Made by a program: the position numbers and the translations under genes. The notes beneath the pieces were generated by a model that saw only the letters and a program-made list of their open reading frames with translations, did no database searches and was not told the DNA's origin. A stretch of 31,957 nt of DNA from a virus: positions 1 through 31,957 of the IMG/VR virus record IMGVR_UViG_3300022748_000037; one strand, 5' to 3'. Of the stretch, positions 16,922-31,957 are shown one piece after another (within the stretch, counting starts at the first letter, position 1; each line of letters starts with the position of its first letter).

Positions 16922-18226
16922 ATGCCGACACCTTCCCTCCTGATAGTACCCGCTCGTTTCAAGTCGGGCAAGTTGTATTCCCAAATCCCAACAAGCGGAG
17001 CGGGGGACTTCACGGTGACCCGTGCGACTACGGCAACCCGTGTGAATGCGAGTGGATACATTGAATCGGTGTCTTCGGGAATACCGAGGTTGGACTACTT
17101 CGCAAGTACTGGAGTGGTTGGTTGTCCTGCGCTACTCGTTGAGCCGAGTGGGCAGAATTTGGCTTTTCACTCTACCGATTGGACGAGTAATTGGAACGGA
17201 GGGACTGCGAGTGGAACAACGGTGGTCACAAATTCCGCTATATCGCTTGCTCCTGACGGCACGGCAACGGCTAACGAGTTTTATCCAACAAGCGGAAATA
17301 CTAATCACTTGTTGCAGTCAAATGTTACAAATGCAGTAACTTATACAAGCGGTACGATTTACACGCAATCAGCGTTCTTTAAGGCGGGTGTTGGTGTTGG
17401 TACAAGGATTCAGCTTACATTTGGTGGCACAAGATTTTCTCAAAACGGCTACGCTAACTTTGATTTAAGTGCAGGCGCAGTTTTGGTCGTAAGTGGCTCA
17501 ACAGCAGATTCAAATAGAGCCGCACGGATTGAAAATTATGGCAATGGATGGTATCGTTGCAGTTTTACAGCGATATGTACATCAAATGGAACAACAGTTG
17601 GAATCATACCTACCATCATTAACGCAAGCGGAGCAACTCGTCTACCATCCTTCGCAGGTACAGTCACGGACTATGTTCTCGGCTGGGGCGCACAACTTGA
17701 AACAGGTTCGGTCGCAACCTCCTACATCCCCACCACCACAGGGTCAGTCACACGCAACGCAGACGTGGTTTTGGTGACAGGTGCGGTAAGTGGTAGTATC
17801 GGACAAACACAGGGAACGATTTATGCGGAGGTGGATGCGAGGAACTTTACTGTAAATTCAAGGCTTATATCCATAAGCAATGGAACGCAAAGCAATAGAA
17901 TTACAACGTTATTCTTCGGAACTAATGTGATTAGATTATTAGCGACCGTCGGAGGATTAGGCCAAGTGGCTATTAATAGTTCATCCTTATCCGCTGGAAT
18001 CATTAAATTCGCTATAGGATACGCCCTTAATGATTACGCCTTTTATGTCAACGGCGTGCAGGTTGGAACGAGTTCGTCAGCATTAGTTCCTGCATGCAAT
18101 GCGGTGATTTTGGGAAGCGTTGATTCTTTGACAGGCTCGTCGGTTATGAACGACCGCATCCGTGCCGTTGCCCTCTACACCACCCGCCTTACCAACGCAG
18201 AACTCGCAGCCCTAACAACTCCGTAA
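16922..18226 (+). CDS. Tail fibre or adhesin with LamG-like domain
   Basis: 434 residues from the ATG at 16922, 2 bases after the preceding stop. The N-terminal block (RATTATRVNASGYIE, PRLDYF, PALLVEPSGQNLAFHS) is a recurring module in phage and bacterial surface proteins. It precedes carbohydrate-binding-like beta domains. The C-terminal part (about 295-434) has the strand pattern and RIRAVALYTTRLTNAE typical of concanavalin/LamG folds. Two inner parts are AT-rich (32-35% GC in lines 17281 and 17881). This is the best candidate for receptor binding. Confidence 0.65.
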   Translation: MPTPSLLIVPARFKSGKLYSQIPTSGAGDFTVTRATTATRVNASGYIESVSSGIPRLDYFASTGVVGCPALLVEPSGQNLAFHSTDWTSNWNGGTASGTTVVTNSAISLAPDGTATANEFYPTSGNTNHLLQSNVTNAVTYTSGTIYTQSAFFKAGVGVGTRIQLTFGGTRFSQNGYANFDLSAGAVLVVSGSTADSNRAARIENYGNGWYRCSFTAICTSNGTTVGIIPTIINASGATRLPSFAGTVTDYVLGWGAQLETGSVATSYIPTTTGSVTRNADVVLVTGAVSGSIGQTQGTIYAEVDARNFTVNSRLISISNGTQSNRITTLFFGTNVIRLLATVGGLGQVAINSSSLSAGIIKFAIGYALNDYAFYVNGVQVGTSSSALVPACNAVILGSVDSLTGSSVMNDRIRAVALYTTRLTNAELAALTTP

Positions 18227-23102: not shown

Positions 23103-23348
23103 ATGAGCAACTACACACCACAACCCAACACCTTCTCCCTGTTCGCCAACGACAAAGGCGACAACCCCAAGCGTCCTGACTACAAGGGCGACATCATCCT
23201 GCCCGACGGCACTAAGATGCGCCTGTCCGCATGGGTGCGAGAATCCCAAGGCGGCAAGAAATTCCTAAGCGGCAAAGTCGAGCCGATGCAGGACCGCCAA
23301 GATTCTGCACCATCACCACAAAAAGATGGGGATGACTTGCCATTTTAG
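23103..23348 (+). CDS. SSB-like single-stranded DNA-binding protein
   Basis: 81 residues. PDYKGDIILPDGTKMRLSAW (about 25-44) followed by GGKKFLSGKV is a beta-barrel-like pattern close to the DUF736 and OB-fold type. The C-terminus ends KDGDDLPF, very like the acidic DDIPF tip through which SSB proteins recruit replication partners. It is shorter than cellular SSB. It lies next to replication genes. The mapping to an OB fold is inferred. Confidence 0.55.
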   Translation: MSNYTPQPNTFSLFANDKGDNPKRPDYKGDIILPDGTKMRLSAWVRESQGGKKFLSGKVEPMQDRQDSAPSPQKDGDDLPF

Positions 23349-23365
23349 TGTACCATTTTAGTGTA
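23340..23365 (+). repeat. Perfect tandem 13-bp repeat
   Basis: CCATTTTAGTGTA occurs twice head to tail (23340-23352 and 23353-23365). The first copy contains the stop of the SSB-like gene and the second runs into a TAACTTTG promoter box. It may be a regulator site or a duplication scar. Confidence 0.85.
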
Positions 23366-23371
23366 ACTTTG
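23364..23371 (+). promoter_or_regulatory. TAnnTTTG promoter element (TAACTTTG)
   Basis: Exact -7 box. A TTTT-rich stretch lies about 20 bases upstream in each repeat copy, in the place of a -33 element. Transcription would begin near 23378 and make the structured RNA that ends at the terminator. Confidence 0.5.
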
Positions 23372-23377
23372 CACGAA

Positions 23378-23490
23378 ATTCACATTTACCAATATAGCCC
23401 ATTTGTGATTCCAGCCAAATGGTGCTACCGATAAAGGGTTCATTCTCTAACCCCTGCCCCGGCTGCTGGAATCAGTCGGGGTTTTTTTTT
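23378..23490 (+). ncRNA. Candidate structured RNA with kissing-loop architecture
   Basis: Three hairpins in order. The first has a 7-bp stem CCATTTG/CAAATGG (23399-23405 with 23416-23422) and a ten-base loop TGATTCCAGC. The second has a 5-bp stem GGGTT/AACCC (23436-23440 with 23449-23453). The third is the terminator (23457-23481). The whole loop of the first is the exact reverse complement of GCTGGAATCA at 23465-23474, which covers the entire seven-base terminator loop plus three stem bases. Full 10-bp pairing would disturb the terminator; 7-bp loop-loop pairing would stabilise it. It lies between the SSB-like gene and the replication genes. I do not recognise it as a known RNA family. The 5' end is inferred from the promoter box. 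Confidence 0.6.
23457..23490 (+). terminator. Intrinsic terminator before replication genes
   Basis: A 9-bp stem CCCCGGCTG (23457-23465) / CAGTCGGGG (23473-23481) has a loop of CTGGAAT and nine T after it. It is only 16 bases before the next start codon, so read-through or control of this site would directly set expression of the replication genes. Confidence 0.9.
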
Positions 23491-23497
23491 ACCTCCT

Positions 23498-24136
23498 ATG
23501 AGAGATTCATTCATCTTTTACCGCTCGTTCCTTAAGAGCATCCAACACCTTGATACCAGCGAGCAACTTGAACTATTTCATGCAATAGTCGAGTACGGTC
23601 TTAACCATCAAGAACCCGAAATGAGCAGGTACGTTCGTGCGGTGTGGGAATCTATAAAACCGCAACTGGATGCTAATCAGCGCAAATACGAGAACGGATG
23701 TAAGGGCGGCAAACCAAAGGCTAACCAAGACCTAACCAAACCTAACCAAGACCTAACCACCACCGAACCACCCCCTAACCTAATGTATAATGGTAATGAT
23801 AATGGGAATGATAAGGAGAATGAAAAGGAAGAAGGAGTAATGAAAAAGCCAAAGAGGGATTGTAGTGTTTTGTTTGACCAATTTTGGGCCATCTATCCCC
23901 GCAAGACCTCCAAGCAGATAGCATCCAAAGCCTTTGCCAAGTTGAACGATGAAGACCAGCAGAAGGCCATCAACAACGTTGCACGCCTCTACTCCGATAC
24001 CCCCGTTGAGTTTATTCCCCATGCCGCAACCTACCTGAACCAAGCCCGATGGGAGGACCAAACCATTATCCGTGGCAATACTTTTGCAAAACCACTAAAC
24101 CAAACCGATGACGCAGACCTACCTCATTTCCGCTGA
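23498..24136 (+). CDS. DUF6291-like replication initiation protein
   Basis: 212 residues. The N-terminal domain (SFIFYRSFLKSIQHLDTSEQ, then RAVWESIKPQLDANQRKYEN) matches the DUF6291 pattern found in phage replication proteins. The middle is a low-complexity linker with a repeated NQDLT unit and Asn/Asp/Lys/Glu runs (about 76-122). The C-terminal part (LFDQFWAIYPRKTSKQIASK) is a typical DnaT/O-like loader region. It overlaps the helicase gene by 29 bases. The bases before the ATG, ACCTCCT, equal the anti-Shine-Dalgarno sequence rather than a ribosome binding site. Confidence 0.6.
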   Translation: MRDSFIFYRSFLKSIQHLDTSEQLELFHAIVEYGLNHQEPEMSRYVRAVWESIKPQLDANQRKYENGCKGGKPKANQDLTKPNQDLTTTEPPPNLMYNGNDNGNDKENEKEEGVMKKPKRDCSVLFDQFWAIYPRKTSKQIASKAFAKLNDEDQQKAINNVARLYSDTPVEFIPHAATYLNQARWEDQTIIRGNTFAKPLNQTDDADLPHFR

Positions 24137-25397
24137 ACGCAGGCTCCTGTCCTGCCTGATGGATTCCTTTATTGACCGTGCATCCCTGCTGATGCAGATT
24201 CCCGAAAGGTTGTTCACAGGGAATAACGTCTTCATATACCGAGCCATTGAAGCCCTTCACCGGGCAGAGCGGCCCGTGGACTTGGTAACCGTTCACCAAC
24301 AACTTGTCAGCCAAGGTCAGGCGTTTGTAGTCCTTGAACTTGCAAGCATTGCCGATGGCATTACCATCACCTCCGATTGGAAGACATACGCCGCAGATTT
24401 GAACCAATCGTGGAAGGTAAGGGAGGAGCAAACCATCATGGCTGACCTTGCCGTTGACCGGGACATTCCAAGAGCATTCGCACGCTACCAAGCGATGCAG
24501 GCCGTGGAAACCAATGCCTCCGAATCAACCGCTCATGAACTCGCCAAGGACTACTTGCTCAACATGAACGAAGTCCGGGAAGGAAGGCGCAAGGATTCTA
24601 TCTATCCCTGCTACATTGCACCAATAGACCGAATGTTTACTGGATTTAAGCCATCCGAGTTTATTCTTCTTGGTGGTCGCCCTGCAATGGGAAAGACCCT
24701 CCTTGCCTTGCAAATCGCCATGAACCAAGCCATGGCTGGCATTCCTGTGGTGTTCTTTACCCTTGAAATGAGTGCAGACCAACTGACCCAGCGGATGCTT
24801 TCCAACCTCGCAACGATGGACGGGGCAGCGTTCCTCAACCCGACCGAGCGAATCAGCACGAAAGATTTTATGGACCTTGGCCAAAAAGCAGACCTGCTCA
24901 AGTCCAAGCCGTTGTATATCGTGGACCTGCACCAAGCGAACCTTGACCGGATAGAGGGTGAAATCGCCAAACTGAAAACCAAGTACGGAATTTGCGGATT
25001 CTACTTGGACTACCTGCAACTCGTAGAACCCACCAAGATTGACAAGGCCAAGCCCAAGATTGAGCAGATGACCAACATCAGCAAGACCCTTAAAGCAATC
25101 TGCAAGCGGCAGAAGGTGTTTGGGGTCGTGGTGTCATCACTATCCCGTGCAACGGAAGGACGGAGCGACCATCGGCCGATAATGTCCGACCTTCGGGAAA
25201 CGGGGCAACTGGAGTTTGACGCTGATAAAATCGGCTTTGTTTACCGTCCTTACGAGCATGACAAGAGCCAGCCATCGGATTTGATGGAGGTCATCGTCCG
25301 CAAGAACCGCAATGGCTCGCTTGGAATTGCCGAGGTCCAATGCCACCTTCCCTACACCAAAGCCAACGAGTTCCCACCCAATAGAATTGATTTATGA
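24108..25397 (+). CDS. dnaB: Replicative DNA helicase, DnaB-like
   Basis: 429 residues, close to normal for phage DnaB. The N-terminal helical domain (about 1-125) contains SAERRLLSCLMD. The RecA-like domain has Walker A GGRPAMGKT at 189-197, FFTLEMS at 216-222, Walker B FYLDYLQL with Asp301, and SSLSRATEGR followed by MSDLRETGQLEFDAD. These are the diagnostic H1a to H4 motifs of DnaB. As a hexamer it unwinds the fork in the 5' to 3' direction. The upstream overlapping gene is probably its loader. Confidence 0.9.
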   Translation: MTQTYLISAERRLLSCLMDSFIDRASLLMQIPERLFTGNNVFIYRAIEALHRAERPVDLVTVHQQLVSQGQAFVVLELASIADGITITSDWKTYAADLNQSWKVREEQTIMADLAVDRDIPRAFARYQAMQAVETNASESTAHELAKDYLLNMNEVREGRRKDSIYPCYIAPIDRMFTGFKPSEFILLGGRPAMGKTLLALQIAMNQAMAGIPVVFFTLEMSADQLTQRMLSNLATMDGAAFLNPTERISTKDFMDLGQKADLLKSKPLYIVDLHQANLDRIEGEIAKLKTKYGICGFYLDYLQLVEPTKIDKAKPKIEQMTNISKTLKAICKRQKVFGVVVSSLSRATEGRSDHRPIMSDLRETGQLEFDADKIGFVYRPYEHDKSQPSDLMEVIVRKNRNGSLGIAEVQCHLPYTKANEFPPNRIDL

Positions 25398-27218: not shown

Positions 27219-27276
27219 GTGCGACTTATGTCGTCGGTCAGCCCCCGATAATAGGCAAGACCGTGAGATTCGGACG

Positions 27277-27309
27277 GGGGGGTGCTTAACCGCATCCCCC
27301 TATTTTTTT
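27277..27309 (+). terminator. Intrinsic terminator before sigma-like gene
   Basis: Nine pairs (27277-27285 with 27292-27300, one G-T) with a six-base loop are followed by TATTTTTTT. It ends the early block. Confidence 0.9.
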
Positions 27310-27312
27310 GCA

Positions 27313-27320
27313 TACCTTTG
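27313..27320 (+). promoter_or_regulatory. TAnnTTTG promoter element abutting start codon (TACCTTTG)
   Basis: Exact -7 box starting 4 bases after the terminator T run and ending 3 bases before the ATG at 27324. The arrangement copies that at 11122. Confidence 0.5.
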
Positions 27321-27323
27321 CGT

Positions 27324-27875
27324 ATGCAGAATGCCGAAACCGTAATCCTTGACCTGTACCGAAGCGGTGAAATCAAGAAGGCCTGCATCACCATCACTGG
27401 CGGCGACCCGCTTTGGCGGGATTTGGAGCAGGAATGCGTCCTCATACTGCTGGAGAAAGACCCCGCCAAGATTCTGCAAATCCAAGGGCAGGGCTACTTC
27501 AAGTTCTACGTCGTGCGCCTGCTCCTGAACCTATACCGGGGCAAGAACAACCAGTTTGCGCAGAAGTACCGCCACCACGACATTACCGAGGAAATCGACC
27601 CAAACGCTGATATGACACACGAAGAGTACAGTTCGCTGGTTGACGATATGTGGGCGATTGCTGAATCCGAGATGGATTCTTGGGCCAAGGAGGGAGCATT
27701 CCCCTACGACAAGGAATTGCTGAAACTGCACATGGCGACGGGTAACATGAAGAAACTATCCCGTGACACGGGCATCCCCTACCGTTCGGTAATTTATTCC
27801 ATCGAGCAAGCCAAGGCCAAAATCAAAGCCGCAATCCTCAAAACCCATGGAAGTAATCCTGACGCTACTCGTTAG
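27324..27875 (+). CDS. Sigma-70-like regulator (phage sigma or HTH factor)
   Basis: 183 residues from ATG 27324; an earlier GTG-initiated frame would run through the terminator and promoter. LWRDLEQECVLILLEK and YFKFYVVRLLLNLYRGKNN resemble the helices of sigma region 2. KLSRDTGIPYRSVIYSIEQA near the C-terminus is a region 4-like helix-turn-helix. It heads the unit leading to terminase and, if the genome is circular, the late genes. It is a good candidate for late transcription control (inference). Confidence 0.5.
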   Translation: MQNAETVILDLYRSGEIKKACITITGGDPLWRDLEQECVLILLEKDPAKILQIQGQGYFKFYVVRLLLNLYRGKNNQFAQKYRHHDITEEIDPNADMTHEEYSSLVDDMWAIAESEMDSWAKEGAFPYDKELLKLHMATGNMKKLSRDTGIPYRSVIYSIEQAKAKIKAAILKTHGSNPDATR

Positions 27876-30644: not shown

Positions 30645-31300
30645 AACTAATCCACTACTACCACATCTACTGCGGCGGAGGCGGCCAATGGCAACTCATC
30701 CTCAACCAGCACATGATGGCCCTGTGCAATTACGGCCTCATCGAAAAACTTGACGAGATTCGGGTAGGCATCGTTGGTCCACCAGAGCAGAGGAAGGCGG
30801 TCAAGGAAATACTTGACAATTCGCTTATCAAAGACAAGGTAAAGGTTGTCGTTACTCGGACAAACGCTTGGGAGCAGGCGACGCTCACCGAGATGTACAA
30901 GGCATCGCAGACCGAAGATGCCGCCTACCTGTACGCTCACACCAAGGGCAGTTCCGACCCAAGCCTGATAAACCAACTGTGGTGCAGGTCCATGATTTTT
31001 TTCAACGTGGTCGCTTGGGAGCGATGCCTTGCAGAACTGGAGAAGGTGGACTGCGTGGGTGCGTATTGGCTGACCAAAGAGGAGTTCCCGCAAATCGCTG
31101 ACCACAACAACCCCGACGGATACCCCTACTTCGCTGGCACGTTTTGGTGGGCCAAGTCCTCCCACATCCGAGAACTCGGAGAACCCGTGCGGGAACACCG
31201 CTGGCAAGCCGAGCATTGGATTGGGAAGCGGGAAGGGATGACGGTCTATAACTCCTGCAAGGGATGGCCTGCGCCTGACAAGTTCATCATCACGTTTTAG
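30641..31300 (+). CDS. Putative glycosyltransferase, complete second copy
   Basis: 219 residues beginning MKLIHYYHIYCGGGGQW. HTKG is at 100-103 and FAGTFWWA at 164-171. The ATG overlaps the microprotein stop. The only protein differences from the copy at 1-653 are Tyr78 to Trp in NAWEQ, Asp to Thr at 91, and Ala to Cys at 138; other base changes are silent. The strong bias to silent change means both versions are under purifying selection. The substrate is unknown. Confidence 0.65.
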   Translation: MKLIHYYHIYCGGGGQWQLILNQHMMALCNYGLIEKLDEIRVGIVGPPEQRKAVKEILDNSLIKDKVKVVVTRTNAWEQATLTEMYKASQTEDAAYLYAHTKGSSDPSLINQLWCRSMIFFNVVAWERCLAELEKVDCVGAYWLTKEEFPQIADHNNPDGYPYFAGTFWWAKSSHIRELGEPVREHRWQAEHWIGKREGMTVYNSCKGWPAPDKFIITF

Positions 31301-31957
31301 CTATGGCCAAGATACCCGTCATCATCACCAACTTCAACCTGTACACTTGGCCCAAGGCCATGGTCAAGAAATTGAAGCGGATGCAAGATGTCGGGCCAAT
31401 CTTAATCTTGGATAACGGCACAACATACGCCCCAACGCTGGAATGGTACGAGCAACTGAAATTGGAGGCCAACGATGTTGCGGTCATTCGCACAGGAGGC
31501 AACTTCGGCCACCTTGTCGCATGGCAAGCCCAAATCCCGATGCAGTTGTTTCAAATGGGATATCCCGACTACATCGTCACCGACCCTGACCTTGACCTTT
31601 CGGCTCTACCTGATGACACCCTCCTGCGGATGCGGGAGGCGTGGTACGACTTGCCCGTCAAAACCTATATGTACGAGCAGGAGGAAGGCGACCCGTTCAA
31701 CGGCGTTATGTTCACGGTCAAGGACAAAATCGGCCTTGGCATTCGGACTGACGATATTCCTGCTGATGCCCTGTTCTTCCAGCAGGCAGAACTACGCTAC
31801 AAAAAGCAACCGACTTGGAATGGCCTGCAACTCGCACCTGTTGACACGACCTTCGCCTTCTACCATCACGAACACTATCAACGGGTCTGCATAAGCGGGG
31901 CAAGGATGGTCGCACCCTATGAGTGCAGGCATCTTCCCTACTACCTGACCGCCGAGG
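30648..31957. repeat. Imperfect terminal direct repeat, right copy
   Basis: Partner of 1-1310 (see that entry). The window ends inside this copy, at a place matching base 1310. Confidence 0.95.
31303..31957 (+). CDS. Putative GT-A-type glycosyltransferase (3' partial)
   Basis: Second copy of the gene at 656-1405, cut by the window end after 218 codons. All motifs of the first copy are present: ITNFN, ILDNG, the GH pair and VTDPDLD. Protein differences are few (Gln to Arg near residue 26, Ile to Leu near 107). It starts 2 bases after the preceding stop, as in the left copy. Confidence 0.7.
   Translation, partial: MAKIPVIITNFNLYTWPKAMVKKLKRMQDVGPILILDNGTTYAPTLEWYEQLKLEANDVAVIRTGGNFGHLVAWQAQIPMQLFQMGYPDYIVTDPDLDLSALPDDTLLRMREAWYDLPVKTYMYEQEEGDPFNGVMFTVKDKIGLGIRTDDIPADALFFQQAELRYKKQPTWNGLQLAPVDTTFAFYHHEHYQRVCISGARMVAPYECRHLPYYLTAE

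Follow-up and report, generated by a model that had tools for sequence, protein, structure and literature searches.

Intrinsic terminators are usually taken to have a free loop. Loops that pair along their full length are known from ColE1 RNA I and RNA II, where the 7-base loops of two antisense partners meet in trans in the control of replication, whereas the two hairpins described here belong to one sense RNA. Rfam 15 includes the families c4 antisense RNA, 6S-flavo, isrK, cobalamin, GOLLD and ROOL.

By working principle the nearest systems are the CI RNA of P4, IsrK of Gifsy-1, the kissing loops of corrinoid riboswitches and the GOLLD and ROOL RNAs, and in the excerpts of the papers cited below the conserved partner is in no case the loop of the terminator itself. 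The P4 CI RNA and IsrK resemble our element as short phage RNAs in an operon leader that combine RNA-RNA pairing with termination and read-through, and the genes under control in P4 also serve replication. However, according to the excerpt those RNAs pair with another transcript or with distinct sites (seqA, seqC) (PMC4825925), whereas here a hairpin, H1, is matched to the terminator's own loop. In the corrinoid riboswitch a loop of the upstream domain contacts the expression-platform hairpin (L5-L13) and controls expression, which provides a precedent for steering an expression platform by a loop-loop contact. As described in the excerpt, this kiss is made with P13 and not with a terminator loop, L5 follows a consensus and the aptamer binds cobalamin (PMC10653944). 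GOLLD and ROOL are likewise noncoding RNAs of phages and have kissing loops that are conserved and in some cases intermolecular, but they are far larger (many GOLLD RNAs exceed 800 nt) and are often found near tRNA islands, as the excerpt has it (PMC12286853).

At the gathering threshold Rfam 15 gave 0 matches in the window, including none to the cobalamin aptamer core of the corrinoid riboswitch, and 0 in 12 loci chosen from different types. The best sub-threshold match in the region was suhB with 21.7 bits compared to the 41 needed, and a known RNA family was therefore rejected. Judged from the listings of the open-access library searched, no paper dealt with a kissing-terminator element.

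Layout of the element in the window

The window is the whole IMG/VR virus record with a length of 31,957 nt. An earlier note had described a TAACTTTG promoter box, a hairpin with a ten-base loop (H1), a small hairpin (H2) and a strong terminator (T) between an SSB-like gene and a DUF6291/DnaB pair, and had pointed out that the ten-base loop is the exact reverse complement of a stretch spanning the terminator loop. The sequence and the computed fold contain this layout and the sequence confirms the ten-base complementarity, which we refer to as the kiss. The coordinates are collected in Table 1.

Table 1. Features of the kissing-terminator region, in window coordinates.
Feature	Position	Strand	Basis
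SSB-like gene	23103..23348	+	ORF; PHROG single strand DNA binding protein phrog_18154, E 3.5e-8
TAACTTTG box, Bacteroidetes -7 type TAnnTTTG	23364..23371	+	sequence; consensus from an excerpt of PMC7366714
Predicted leader/small RNA	23372..23490	+	bounds from promoter box and terminator; fold z -2.71; alignment A1
Hairpin H1, outer TAGC/GCTA, inner CCATTTG/CAAATGG (23399-23405 / 23416-23422)	23395..23427	+	fold
H1 loop TGATTCCAGC, ten bases, 5' side of kiss	23406..23415	+	covaries with terminator loop
Small hairpin H2, GGGTT/AACCC	23436..23453	+	fold; weaker in alignment
Intrinsic terminator T, 10-bp stem, 7-base loop 23466-23472, T run to 23490	23456..23482	+	sequence, fold; stem covaries
3' side of kiss GCTGGAATCA, T loop and flanking stem bases	23465..23474	+	exact reverse complement of 23406-23415; covaries
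DUF6291 and replication-initiation-like gene, first after T	23498..24136	+	Pfam PF19808 E 1.3e-22; PHROG replication initiation protein E 2e-15
DnaB-like helicase gene	24108..25397	+	Pfam DnaB_C E 8e-60

The product of the SSB-like gene ends in DDLPF at its C-terminus and its stop codon lies immediately 5' of the promoter box; a Pfam search with this gene gave no match. The motif TAnnTTTG is the -7 box of Bacteroidetes (PMC7366714, excerpt), and the TAACTTTG form is conserved in nearly all relatives examined. The outer stem of H1 was added by the computed fold beyond the inner one, and between the end of the T stem and the ATG there are 15 nt. As the earlier note had advised, we compared the fold energy with shuffled sequence: the minimum free energy of the element was lower than that of dinucleotide shuffles, of which 2/200 were as low.

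Several further characteristics of the region were recorded. The 10-mer of the H1 loop has one further copy in the window (17993-18002, minus strand), and there are 6 sites with at most one mismatch compared to a shuffle mean of 2.23. Directly 5' of the promoter box CCATTTTAGTGTA forms a tandem repeat (23340-23365); it is present as a single copy in the relatives compared, and L104 and L146 may share the repeat. In the 5' leader the motif ACATTTA (23382-23388; columns 11-17 of alignment A1) is almost invariant in A1 and is lacking in the subtypes ATTGAGGC and GGTCGTAGC; TACATTTA is similar to a -7 box and would be the second one, 3' of the first. Between the terminator and the start codon a T-run followed by TACC...ATG recurs in many copies of both lineages described below (L591-L631; 23482-23500 in the window), and this stretch may serve the start of translation.

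The host probably belongs to the Bacteroidota, as the closest cultured relatives of the terminase among the matches listed are Flavobacterium phages (50.8%). The promoter stretch had 0 matches in genome contigs, and a blastn search with 7,501 bases found no phage record. Positions 1-1310 and 30648-31957 of the window are 93.3% identical over 1312 aligned bases, which is either a diverged duplication of a gene pair or an overlap of the record ends arising from strain variants in the assembly.

Conservation of the loop-loop pairing

A search with the downstream protein retained 80 of 151 loci. For those of L002-L032 with sufficient upstream sequence the promoter box, H1, H2 and T were conserved, and both loops varied together. 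In order to avoid any selection on the terminator, viral contigs were scanned for 21 upstream bases that cover the end of the SSB-like gene and the promoter box. The 222 matches correspond to 125 distinct stretches; 9 incomplete ones were dropped, leaving 116 full-length stretches of 200 bases each. Because the 21-base pattern is restrictive, this sample consists of close relatives only. A kiss, taken here as complementarity of at least 6 bases between a hairpin loop and the loop of the terminator, occurs in all 116 distinct stretches. This count holds for a detector loosened to an H1 stem of 4 bp: with the first setting (at least 5 bp) it was 101/116, and the 15 stretches that were missed have a 4-bp inner stem. 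The kiss sequences fall into 12 types, two of which are nested in others.

Alignment A1 comprises 56 sequences, namely the window plus 55 out of 57 distinct cores; the two that were excluded, L041 and L200, have a long H2. Over the seven pairs of the kiss 379/379 scored cells were Watson-Crick, with 13 gap cells set aside. Five of the seven pairs had changed on both sides, in 92 cells, and there were 0 one-sided changes. The kiss obtained a covariation score of 0.601 compared to 0.182 for shuffles (0/500 as high), and slid versions of the pairing reached at most 0.116. L068 and L113, for instance, are identical over 117 nt except for a single swap from C-G to G-C across the kiss. In 51/56 sequences C49 could form an eighth pair with the terminator's closing G. 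The terminator stem covaries as well and contains G-U pairs on the transcribed strand, the H1 stems show 26 distinct forms with varied pair types (the detector itself requires the inner four positions to pair) and for H2 80.8% of the cells are paired.

We reached a second lineage via relatives of the ParB-like/methylase protein that is found 3' of some copies. Its RNAs have no obvious sequence likeness to those of the first lineage and an identical layout of box, H1, H2, T and start codon. From 76 of 80 loci we derived 62 distinct upstream regions. A terminator was detected in 33/62, and all 33 have the kiss; in the remaining 29/62 no terminator was detected. Eight of the 33 copies are of the ATTGAGGC type, which resembles the first lineage. 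In alignment A2 (24 sequences) 166/168 kiss cells pair, 5/7 pairs had changed on both sides and the covariation score of the kiss was 0.790 compared to 0.219 in shuffles. The stems of H1 and T covary too, for a structure drawn from the first sequence. A2 contains eleven kiss sequences, and in L619 and L631 there are 6 kiss pairs and one mismatch. After merging nested ones, A1 and A2 together hold 20 different kiss sequences. In both alignments we thus found two hairpin loops linked by compensatory Watson-Crick changes, the pattern that defines a kissing loop.

Two further sets of 80 loci each were also scanned. For the first, 70 loci gave 60 distinct regions, of which the detector reported 50 with the kiss and 10 without. 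Among those 10, complementary 7-mers were found by eye in L488, L489, L492, L494 and L496, L498 has one mismatch, and L473, L475, L476 and L480 yielded none when complementary 7-mers were looked for by eye. The second set, again of ParB-like/methylase relatives, gave 54 distinct regions from 62 loci (26 with kiss and 28 without). By eye most of the 28 have no terminator near the start, and L550 has a terminator without a visible kiss.

The earlier note had named relatives that keep the terminator without the complementary loop, and a lack of covariation, as findings that would speak against the pairing. Instead the kiss is present in every sequence of the first lineage's sample and in every second-lineage region with a detected terminator, with few exceptions elsewhere, and it covaries in both lineages. 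The claim of a kissing loop is supported about as far as sequence alone allows. One of the exceptions is L124 (minus strand, ~1843), which keeps the terminator, has a loop match of only 5 bases and has an altered promoter box; with box and kiss affected together it is possibly a recombinant or a decayed element.

Gene context and the proposed role of the leader

A start codon was placed in 115 of the 116 contexts (requiring an ORF that has 150 aa or more or runs off the contig). In all 115 the ATG is 11-16 nt 3' of the terminator stem, the terminator lies between the promoter box and the first gene on the same strand, and there is no TAnnTTTG box between terminator and ATG (0/115). A looser test with ORFs of 60 aa gave a gap of 9-16 nt in 116/116, again without a box, though some of those starts seem to be out of frame. 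For the 33 copies of the second lineage the gap is 12-30 nt, without a TAnnTTTG box, and for a wider set of copies it is 9-34 nt with three sites left aside.

In the window the next gene is the DUF6291/replication-initiation-like gene, followed by DnaB. Other copies precede short genes without a Pfam match, BT4734-N/PriCT-2/VapE-like primase genes, ParB-like/methylase genes or genes for DUF3223 or DUF4326, where 'ParB-like' is our reading of the sequence and the Pfam matches are to methylase or DUF4326 only. The description of the element as lying upstream of replication genes is accurate for most copies and has to be widened for those before ParB-like/methylase, DUF3223 or DUF4326 genes. The layout is common to unrelated families of downstream genes, and the kiss types are spread over the downstream gene types. 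Autoregulation by the downstream protein was rejected, since the kiss type is not bound to one type of downstream protein.

A second intergenic stretch of the window (27219-27326) contains an ordinary terminator at 27276-27301. In relatives this terminator is followed by a TAnnTTTG box (4/12) or by its one-mismatch form (8/12) and then by the ATG. Its loop is near-constant, with 4 forms in 16 matches. In the window TACCTTTG lies 3' of this terminator with the ATG three bases further on and looks like a leaderless promoter. As there is no such box between T and its gene, the genes behind the kissing terminator seem to depend on read-through, a conclusion we draw mainly from the box that follows the ordinary terminator.

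The reading we prefer, and to which we would give about an even chance, is that of a leader working as an attenuator, with the kissing loop holding its terminator. It builds on what the compared sequences establish, namely the hairpins, the kiss with its compensatory conservation in two lineages, the adjacent promoter box and the missing TAnnTTTG box between terminator and gene. The element would be a leader RNA of phage origin, ~110-120 nt long, that has a Bacteroidota-type promoter box to itself and contains the three hairpins H1, H2 and T, the last being a predicted intrinsic terminator directly 5' of the start codon of the first gene in what is mostly a replication module. The H1 loop would pair with the entire 7-base T loop through 7-8 Watson-Crick pairs and form a kissing complex. 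Transcripts from the promoter would mostly end at T, the product being a compact small RNA, and the downstream genes would be made by read-through. The level of this read-through would be set by the kiss, which most probably keeps T locked in its closed form; termination would then be the default state and would be relieved once H1 or the kiss is disturbed.

The energies of the loop duplexes (~-9 to -15 kcal/mol) suggest a strong contact, although real kissing energies differ; the terminator hairpins lie at ~-15 to -20 kcal/mol. The earlier note had also proposed that full pairing would invade the terminator stem and allow read-through. This part has to be given up: stem-invading pairing is not conserved beyond the TGATTCCAGC allele, to which the ten-base match belongs. 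Because the conserved pairing comprises the 7-base T loop, often together with the closing G, a closed terminator locked by H1 is favoured over stem invasion. In an unsystematic look we noticed no alternative antiterminator fold and no conserved alternative pairing, and since the terminator can stay closed with the conserved kiss in place, there is no clear sign of a switch. For the second lineage the kiss in cis may be strained by short linkers, by a rough estimate rather than a computation; among the 12 linkers listed there the unpaired bases beside H2 are mostly 2-4 nt.

Further points count against an attenuator. Terminators near the next gene are expected anyway in compact phage genomes. 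The downstream genes may also be served by promoters of another type or by transcripts that start further upstream. Furthermore, no kissing terminator was found in the stretches from five chosen cultured-phage records (Nonlabens P12024S and P12024L, Cellulophaga phi46:1, Flavobacterium mumin9-1 and Riemerella GRNRAP2) out of the 317 and 41 records with a match.

A free-standing small RNA is possible but rather unlikely. In that case T would be its 3' end, the kiss would give it a compact stable fold and it would act in trans on the phage or the host; the position of the downstream gene would be incidental, with that gene expressed via leaky termination or distant promoters. The element has its own promoter box and a strong terminator, its structure is conserved before differing types of downstream genes, and IsrK, according to the excerpt, offers a precedent of an RNA made at a terminator with read-through into genes that acts in trans (PMC4825925). 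However, the RNA adjoins a start codon on the same strand wherever one was placed, and the missing promoter box in between is the reason why we favour an attenuator over a small RNA. Moreover, there is no obvious conserved region for pairing with a target, because the kiss occupies both loops.

Possible pairing between copies and weaker alternatives

The kiss might also be formed between molecules, with the terminated RNA of one genome pairing with the leader of another copy and altering its termination; the outcome would be dosage control or a type-specific exclusion among co-infecting relatives. We consider this improbable. In its favour, 41 pairs among 153 records have flanks that are at least 93% identical on both sides and a different kiss, and one sample contained six detector types, two of them nested (16/19 loci typed). 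The loop energies average -5.7 kcal/mol across types compared to -12.8 kcal/mol for a loop's own partner, and in the excerpt on P4 the CI RNA controls replication genes via RNA-RNA pairing and premature termination (PMC4825925). On the other hand, a kiss in cis should outcompete one in trans, and some types cross-pair well: when loops were exchanged among 16 distinct loop pairs, 220/240 combinations matched over 2-5 bases and 20/240 over at least 6.

Nor are the kiss positions clearly faster-evolving than the rest of the RNA. The differences per site for kiss and rest were 0.026 vs 0.010 for the 39 closest pairs, a ratio inflated by choosing pairs on a small non-kiss distance, 0.026 vs 0.021 for 77 pairs, 0.038 vs 0.033 for 109 pairs and 0.080 vs 0.053 for 161 pairs. 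Across these four sets there is no clear excess in the kiss, and diversifying selection on it was not borne out. Recombination together with compensatory drift would suffice. The further idea of a multi-allelic self-recognition code, in which type-matched RNAs would act in trans on the termination that precedes the replication genes, is a speculative one to which we give a low probability.

An inverted repeat acting at the level of DNA, through templated (quasi-palindrome) correction or as a binding site of a replication protein and without any role of RNA pairing, is very unlikely. The kiss of the first lineage is free of one-sided and G-U intermediates, a pattern that templated correction would produce, and the element lies near replication genes. 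However, both halves are located in hairpin loops, the sequence between the loops can stay constant while both of them switch, the stems of the terminator and H1 have G-U pairs on the transcribed strand, and the repeat is linked to a promoter box and a T run.

For comparison we used cellular terminators with the same stem pattern (134 among the matches listed). Complementary bases within the 140 nt upstream numbered at least 8 in 0, at least 7 in 4 and at least 6 in 26 of these listed terminators, and in 3 of them a match of at least 6 bases fell within the loop of a hairpin whose stem has 5 bp or more. For viral sites with the terminator pattern, 99 of the 119 among the matches listed have at least 7 complementary bases upstream; a TAnnTTTG box occurs 40-130 nt upstream in 97 of these 99 and in 0 of the other 20. 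That the terminator is an ordinary one, complemented upstream by chance, has a negligible probability: short complements are common in the listed controls, but none there reaches 8 bases, and all 116 stretches keep the pairing with covariation. The judgement of the earlier note that the match is unlikely by chance agrees with this control, with the covariation and with the shuffled folds.

We judge the kissing RNA to be real because its loop pairing was kept through many coordinated changes of sequence. It is apparently unlisted and may control the genes downstream of it. The terminator loop appears fully engaged in a conserved loop-loop contact in both sets of phage RNAs, which have almost no sequence in common. 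If self-recognition were true, related phages sharing a cell would gauge the copy number of their own kind or keep out phages of their own type, as plasmid incompatibility groups would if they were written into the loop of a terminator. Should the contact tune termination, terminators would be open to regulation via their loops, which could give designable orthogonal switches, and the natural series of 20 kiss sequences would be a ready set of compensatory mutants.
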